Shown here: in pieces, positions 57,534 to 59,177 of the stretch
Position numbering within the stretch: the first letter of the stretch is position 1
How the letters are laid out: each line of letters opens with the position of its first letter
DNA from: Sulfurospirillum tamanense
GTDB lineage: Bacteria; Campylobacterota; Campylobacteria; Campylobacterales; Campylobacteraceae
Direction of reading: 5' to 3'
Assembly (NCBI RefSeq): GCF_016937535.1
Contig: NZ_JAFHKK010000003.1
Span: 1-64,000, forward strand
Length of the DNA stretch: 64,000 bases
Program-made: the position numbers and the translations under genes
Notes under the pieces: model-generated
Told to the model about the DNA's origin: nothing
Database searches by the model: none
What the model saw: only the letters and a program-made list of their open reading frames with translations

Positions 57534-58091
57534 TTACTGCATGTCGCCAAAAAGCAGCGCCTCTTTTACTGCCACAAAACGCTCTTCCCCACACAATTCT
57601 TTTACAATCTCTAATGCAAACTCCATCGCCGTAGCCGGACCTCGTGAAGTCATGGTATTGTGGTGGTGAACAACGCTACATGTAGACAAATAGCCCGGCG
57701 CATTAATCACTGCTTCAAAGGAAGGGTAGCACGTATAATGTTCTTTGAGAACACCTGCGTTTTTTAACGCCCAAGGGGCAGCACAAATGGCACCAATGCG
57801 CTTATTATCTCGATCAAAGGCCTGAAGCAACTCCATCACAGCCTCAGACTCGGCGAGGTGTTTAGCTCCTGGCATTCCCCCTGGAAGAACCACCATGTCG
57901 CACACATCTGCCACCACCTCGCTCAACACCATATCTGCATGTATCACTATGCCATGCGCGCCCATCACTGCTTCGCGGTCAAGTCCTGCGCTAATGACCC
58001 GTATCTGGGCACGACGCAAAACATCAATAAGAGTCACTGCTTCAATTTCTTCAAACCCATTTGCCAAGAGGATGAGTACGGTGCGCTCCAT
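57534..58091 (-). CDS. DJ-1/PfpI family protein
   Basis: 185 residues. The nucleophile elbow is GAICAAP, with the partner glutamate in ANGFEEIEA and a VVLPGGMPGA loop, as in DJ-1/YajL. These are protein/nucleotide deglycase- or chaperone-like oxidative-stress proteins. Transcribed away from the selenoprotein gene. Confidence 0.88.
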   Translation of the reverse strand: MERTVLILLANGFEEIEAVTLIDVLRRAQIRVISAGLDREAVMGAHGIVIHADMVLSEVVADVCDMVVLPGGMPGAKHLAESEAVMELLQAFDRDNKRIGAICAAPWALKNAGVLKEHYTCYPSFEAVINAPGYLSTCSVVHHHNTMTSRGPATAMEFALEIVKELCGEERFVAVKEALLFGDMQ

Positions 58092-58159
58092 CGGTCTCTC
58101 CTTGTAAAAAACGATGGGACATTATAACAAGTTCACACCCCAAATCCCCCATCTTTTGC

Positions 58160-58205
58160 TACAATAGAGTTCTTTCATACTCCCTCTAGTGAGTCGTGAA
58201 AGAAC
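58160..58205 (+). promoter_or_regulatory. Promoter and leader hairpin of the selenoprotein gene
   Basis: TACAAT at 58160-58165 with TGC just upstream. Beginning within it, GTTCTTTCA (58169-58177) pairs perfectly with TGAAAGAAC (58197-58205), and ACTC (58179-58182) with GAGT (58191-58194) inside. Because transcription would start near 58172, this could be a DNA operator or a leader stem. Confidence 0.5.
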
Positions 58206-58226
58206 GTCATACCAAAAGGAGATTCC

Positions 58227-58472
58227 ATGCGTGTCACTATCACTTACTGCAACGTTTGAAAATTTTATCCCAGAGCTTCCCGTGTGGAAGAAGAACTCAA
58301 AACTGCATTTCCTGATATTTCAGTTGAACTCATTCCCGGCAGTGGCAGTGTATTTGATGTAGAAGTGGACGGAGTACGAATTTTTTCAAAGAAAGAAGGT
58401 GGCCCAGACCAATACCGACGCTTTCCCGAAGAGGGCGAAATCACTGCTCTAATCAAACAGATTAAAGCATAA
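58227..58472 (+). CDS. SelW-like (Rdx family) selenoprotein, in-frame TGA decoded as selenocysteine
   Basis: 81 residues from the ATG at 58227 (AAAAGGAG at five bases). The sequence reads MRVTITYCNV then TGA (58257-58259) then KFYPRASRVEEEL and on to QYRRFPEEGEITALIKQIKA. The C-x-x-[TGA] arrangement is the CxxU redox motif of SelW/SelT-type Rdx proteins; the region downstream (GSGSVFDVEVDG, IFSKKEGGP) is typical of the fold. Gene callers that stop at TGA would report only the 62-residue C-terminal piece starting at 58284. Confidence 0.88.
58276..58290 (+). promoter_or_regulatory. Candidate bacterial SECIS hairpin
   Basis: CTTCC-CGTGT-GGAAG begins 16 bases after the TGA, in the distance range of bacterial SECIS elements, which bind SelB within the coding region. 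The short stem is perfect; assignment rests on position and the selenoprotein call. Confidence 0.5.
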
Positions 58473-58475
58473 AAT

Positions 58476-58515
58476 ACCGCCTTACATGTAACCCTTTACA
58501 TGTAAGGCGGTTTTA
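58476..58515. terminator. Bidirectional terminator built from two inverted TTACATGTAA copies
   Basis: ACCGCCTTACATGTAA (58476-58491) and its exact complement (58496-58511) form a perfect 16-base stem with a CCCT loop, followed by TTTT. The other strand is preceded by AAAATA, giving a T-rich tail for efp. It separates the converging selenoprotein and efp genes. Confidence 0.88.
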
Positions 58516-58526
58516 GTATTATTTTC

Positions 58527-59093
58527 TCACTTACTCACACGCTCTAGGTATTCACCTTTAACCGTATCCACGCGAATCACTTCCCCTTCAAGTACGTGAA
58601 AAGGAATCTGCACTACCGCTCCGCTCTCAAGGGTTGCTGGCTTTTTGCCTCCTTGGGAATCACCCTTGAAGTTCGGCGGGGTTTCAACGATTTTAAGCTC
58701 AACCGTTCCGGGAACTTCAACGTCAATAGCTTGACCATTGTGGAACAAAATATCCACCATCATGCCATCAATCATCCATTTAATCACATCGCCCACTTGG
58801 TCATGGGAAATGCCCACTTGCTCATAAGATTCCGTATCCATAAATTGCAACAACTCACCATCATCATACAAATACTGCATCTGCTTTTGCACCAAATTGG
58901 GTTGTTCGCACTTATCTCCTGCATGAAACGTTTTTTCAATCACTTTACCGTTGAAGTACGATTTGATTTTTACCCGCACAAACGCTGCGCCTTTGCCGGG
59001 CTTTACATGCTGGTACTCTGTGATTTTATACGGTACGCCATTAAGCTCGATTTTGAGCCCTTTTTTTAAGTCTCCCATGGAGTAAGAAGCCAT
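58527..59093 (-). CDS. efp: Elongation factor P
   Basis: 188 residues from the ATG five bases after AGGAG; the ATG one codon upstream is too close. [20 protein letters not shown], with the modifiable lysine in PGKGAAF, and the [15 protein letters not shown] stretch are EF-P marks. Relieves ribosome stalling at proline runs. Confidence 0.95.
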
Positions 59094-59177
59094 CATCTCT
59101 CCTAAAAAATTTTTAAAAGTATAGCCAATTTTAGATTAGACTTTTCGCAAATTCCACAGGATGACAAAAATTAGATG

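Follow-up and report, generated by a model that had tools for sequence, protein, structure and literature searches.

The locus at 58227..58472 (+ strand) of the window, by which we mean the whole 64,000-nucleotide stretch of the Sulfurospirillum tamanense genome that was analysed, is almost certainly a selW-type gene (Rdx, or SelT/SelW/SelH, family) encoding a selenoprotein, with an in-frame TGA decoded as selenocysteine (Sec) by means of a hairpin located just downstream. With TGA translated as U, the frame gives an 81-residue protein beginning MRVTITYCNVUKFYPRASRVEEELKTAF..., in which Sec is codon 11 in the context YCNV(TGA)KF. The features of the gene are as follows:

58216..58221, +, AAGGAG ribosome-binding site, 5 nt upstream of the ATG (sequence reading)
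58227-58229, +, ATG start codon (sequence reading)
58257..58259, +, TGA read as Sec, U11 of the CNVU motif (conserved in relatives, see below)
58276..58290, +, SECIS-like hairpin within the coding sequence, CUUCC-CGUGU-GGAAG (pairing, and covariation in relatives)
58470-58472, +, TAA stop codon (sequence reading)

In the proposed mechanism, the ribosome would start at the ATG at 58227, and the hairpin just past the codon 11 TGA would recruit SelB carrying Sec-tRNA-Sec, allowing Sec to be inserted and translation to continue to the TAA at 58470. The product would be a protein of thioredoxin-like fold in which the CxxU pair forms the redox centre; both Sec insertion in S. tamanense and this redox activity are what we infer from the evidence set out below.

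The read-through frame and its family

The original prediction, made from the letters of the window, had placed the TGA in a CxxU motif of a SelW-like protein behind a good ribosome-binding site and ahead of a hairpin, and these positions proved correct to the base. It had also counted 71 codons after the TGA; the open frame is indeed there, but that figure includes the final stop, leaving 70 sense codons between the TGA and the TAA. The pattern by itself is not beyond chance, as 13 places in the window fit a loose scan for a Cys within 0-3 residues of a TGA, ≥50 open codons beyond it, and a hairpin of 5 bp; 12 of these are further candidates that satisfy these loose criteria alone. This locus stands above chance because its read-through frame has homology and its hairpin stem shows compensatory changes.

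The SelW-like identity was borne out by profile searches. The read-through protein matched the Pfam Rdx family (PF10262) at 7.3e-21 and 74.6 bits (cut-off 22.6) and, with U entered as Cys, scored 57.1 bits against TIGR02174 CXXU_selWTH (cut-off 34.2) and 93.8 bits against NCBIfam NF041051 SelTWH_Campy (cut-off 88), an equivalog model named "SelT/SelW/SelH family (seleno)protein"; entered in this way, it exceeded all three curated cut-offs over the full length. In the genome search with the stop read through, the NF041051 score was 85.2, slightly below the cut-off. The N-terminal CxxC/CxxU redox motif that follows the first beta strand in the family is present as CNVU at residues 8-11, and we found no difference between the protein and these three families. 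Solved structures of Rdx relatives, assigned to the same family by sequence, include mammalian selenoprotein W (2npb) and the bacterial Cys-type proteins 2oka and 3dex, which carry CTQC, with Cys replacing Sec. The mammalian SelW gene has its SECIS element in the 3′-UTR and relies on a different insertion machinery.

A mechanical listing of open reading frames reports only a 62-residue, GTG-start frame at 58284-58472, which lacks the N-terminus and the redox centre and gives weaker matches to the Rdx families. The claim that standard callers would mis-annotate the gene is thus plausible, in that plain listing does cut off the N-terminus and redox centre as had been predicted, although a dedicated NCBIfam model now exists. 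A search for literature on the treatment of selenoproteins by PGAP or NCBIfam returned nothing useful.

Conservation of the TGA and of the downstream hairpin

A selW relative was present in 103 of 153 genomes of the same family, and the best copy contained exactly one TGA in all but one of these carriers (102/103). The comparison with homologues suggested in the original prediction thus recovered CxxU at the N-terminus in 102 of the 103 matching family genomes and, beyond them, at the same position in loci of distant and unrelated phyla. Using a threshold of E ≤ 1e-60 for presence, selB was matched in 101 of the 102 TGA-carrying genomes, the exception (G134) being a genome that is 57% complete. 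Of the 50 genomes that have no selW relative, selB is present in 19, which would be expected if other selenoproteins maintain it. The sole carrier without an in-frame TGA (G097, locus L068) is frameshifted at the Sec codon and has no selB match in its genome, which fits the loss of selW together with the Sec machinery.

Three genomes of one genus carry a tandem selW pair between the DJ-1 and efp genes. In two of them (L070 in G004 and L071 in G015), Cys replaces Sec in the first copy, whose hairpin stem is lost or partial, with pairing judged by eye; in the third (L069 in G002), the first copy retains the TGA, with an extra codon after it. Judged by their sequences, these copies seem to form a short natural series leading from Sec to Cys.

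The predicted hairpin at 58276-58290 is present, with a loop that begins 21 nt past the TGA and has G at its second position. Its minimum free energy, computed for the region as a single sequence, was not lower than that of shuffles (z 0.35), and an Rfam scan of the window gave no family at the gathering score and hence no Rfam RNA at its hairpins. Comparison among relatives was more informative. In the covariation test, limited to 28 distinct sequences from Campylobacterota, all five stem pairs formed in 28/28, kept through compensatory changes. Changes on both sides were seen at four of the five pairs (32 cells vs 7.4 in shuffles; 0/500), the stem covariation score was 0.641 vs 0.187 in shuffles (0/500), and the agreement was lost when the partner strand was slid by 1-3 columns. 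Alignment column 26, which lies in the loop, was G in all 28. A wider set of 47 sequences showed 98.3% of cells paired, compared to 71.5% in shuffles; this set comprises 56 distinct TGA sequences minus nine removed by hand, namely seven loci of Actinomycetota type and from Armatimonadetes (in which the hairpin register mostly differs), a single sequence containing masked bases, and a tandem copy lengthened by one codon. Such a pattern of substitution indicates a SECIS-type hairpin under selection. Where two codons lie opposite each other in the stem, the encoded residues change in concert (Ser/Glu, Ala/Ala, and Phe/Lys); the SelW protein sequence thus appears to be shaped by the RNA hairpin.

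These comparisons bear on whether the TGA could instead be a true stop, in which case the locus would be the decayed remains of an Rdx gene of the Cys type, or translation would yield just the 62-residue protein from the GTG at 58284. The shorter frame does exist in a mechanical listing and still matches Rdx; however, its product would be shortened and without the CxxU centre, whereas coding conservation extends over the ten codons upstream of the TGA, the TGA itself is conserved across genera and phyla, the hairpin covaries, and genomes without selB almost always lack a selW gene. We therefore regard a true stop as very improbable and retain Sec decoding.

Selenocysteine machinery and gene neighbourhood

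The genes on which Sec decoding depends, and for which the original prediction had proposed a search, were all found in the S. tamanense genome (2.46 Mb, estimated to be 100% complete), searched family by family. These are selA (C1:184253-185557, 529 bits), selB directly downstream of it (C1:185590, 267 bits), selC, encoding tRNA-Sec with the anticodon TCA (C1:143899-143991), and selD (C1:163060-163965, 347 bits). The same contig holds two frames for formate dehydrogenase alpha subunits, each containing a single in-frame TGA (G000:C1:169267-176549; L089 and L090). With these genes present and CxxU recovered in the homologues, the original prediction came through both of the refuting checks that it had set.

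In some bacteria TGA specifies Trp or Gly, and near-cognate read-through occurs generally at a low level, so the codon might in principle be read as another amino acid, such as Trp or Cys, without any Sec machinery. Given that the genome encodes all of the Sec machinery, among it a tRNA-Sec whose anticodon is TCA, that the SECIS-type hairpin is under selection, and that adjacent open reading frames are normal under table 11, we consider this even less probable than a true stop, and Sec remains our reading of codon 11.

The surroundings of selW comprise the following:

57534..58091, −, gene which we take to be DJ-1/PfpI-like, divergent neighbour of selW (open reading frame; many relatives have a homologue placed likewise next to selW)
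58157..58165, +, probable extended −10 promoter element, TGCTACAAT (inferred by reading the sequence)
58169..58205, +, inverted repeat of 37 nt, a hairpin located where the selW transcript is predicted to begin (folding)
58476..58511, both strands by prediction, strong intrinsic terminator with a 16-bp stem, lying where selW and efp converge
58527..59096, −, gene presumed from its sequence to encode elongation factor P (efp), convergent neighbour of selW (open reading frame; conserved near selW)

The arrangement in the window, with the DJ-1-like gene divergent on one side of selW and efp convergent on the other, recurs in many relatives, where the efp near selW shows 72-98% identity. In the distant genus g5 loci, a weaker DJ-1-like match lies on the opposite side and no efp is nearby. 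The putative promoter element was not reported by a general promoter scan; the same TTTTGCTACAAT occurs in the sister genome (L067).

The leader hairpin folds well (58167-58230, −18.2 kcal/mol, z −3.26) but is missing from the same sister, whose gene is 84% identical. No other copies were found in the genome, even with 3 mismatches, and we rejected a mobile repeat given this single occurrence. The hairpin could be a newly acquired control element specific to selW here, acting on transcript stability or as a site for a regulatory protein, although we hold this to be unlikely.

Relation to published SelW genes

SelW-like proteins were listed among 25 bacterial selenoprotein families in 2006 (PMC1794560). 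In 2015, SelW genes in Epsilonproteobacteria were reported to be "completely missed" in annotation, and a 5/6-bp SECIS hairpin with an invariant loop G was derived for them (PMC4607533). More recently (2025), Ribo-seq of the Campylobacter jejuni selW (CJnc60) showed ribosome occupancy across the gene with a peak of termination past the stop of the full-length frame, while proteomics recovered peptides beyond the Sec site, i.e., full-length translation (PMC11955535). The gene described here corresponds closely to these: the same 80-81 residue Rdx protein with an N-terminal CxxU and in-frame TGA, and the same 5/6-bp apical hairpin just past the TGA with its invariant loop G, in a gene that often goes unannotated. 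It differs from the epsilonproteobacterial SelW genes in its extra hairpin in the predicted 5′ leader, and its protein is divergent (CNVU KFYPRASRVEEE, compared to CNLU NYKPQAARVAEE in the genus g5 relatives), with nothing essential differing.

In weighing Sec decoding, we counted in its favour the family match, the machinery, TGA conservation, co-occurrence with selB, stem covariation, and the conserved neighbours, together with the frameshift in G097 without selB, the degraded hairpins in the two Cys-bearing tandem copies, the C. jejuni parallel (PMC11955535), and the two TGA-containing formate dehydrogenase frames. Counted against it were the single-hairpin folding, no better than shuffles, and the sub-threshold NF041051 score in the genome search. 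Since the epsilonproteobacterial SelW, its SECIS element, and its translation in C. jejuni are published, the finding is correct and already explained, and the evidence supports a SelW selenoprotein gene that is real and of a known kind.

A genuine selenoprotein that is truncated by simple gene callers can thus be detected by reading the raw sequence. For annotators, the useful part is the set of evidence, namely TGA conservation, co-occurrence with selB, and a covarying hairpin. For the biology, the described SelW family gains one more genus.
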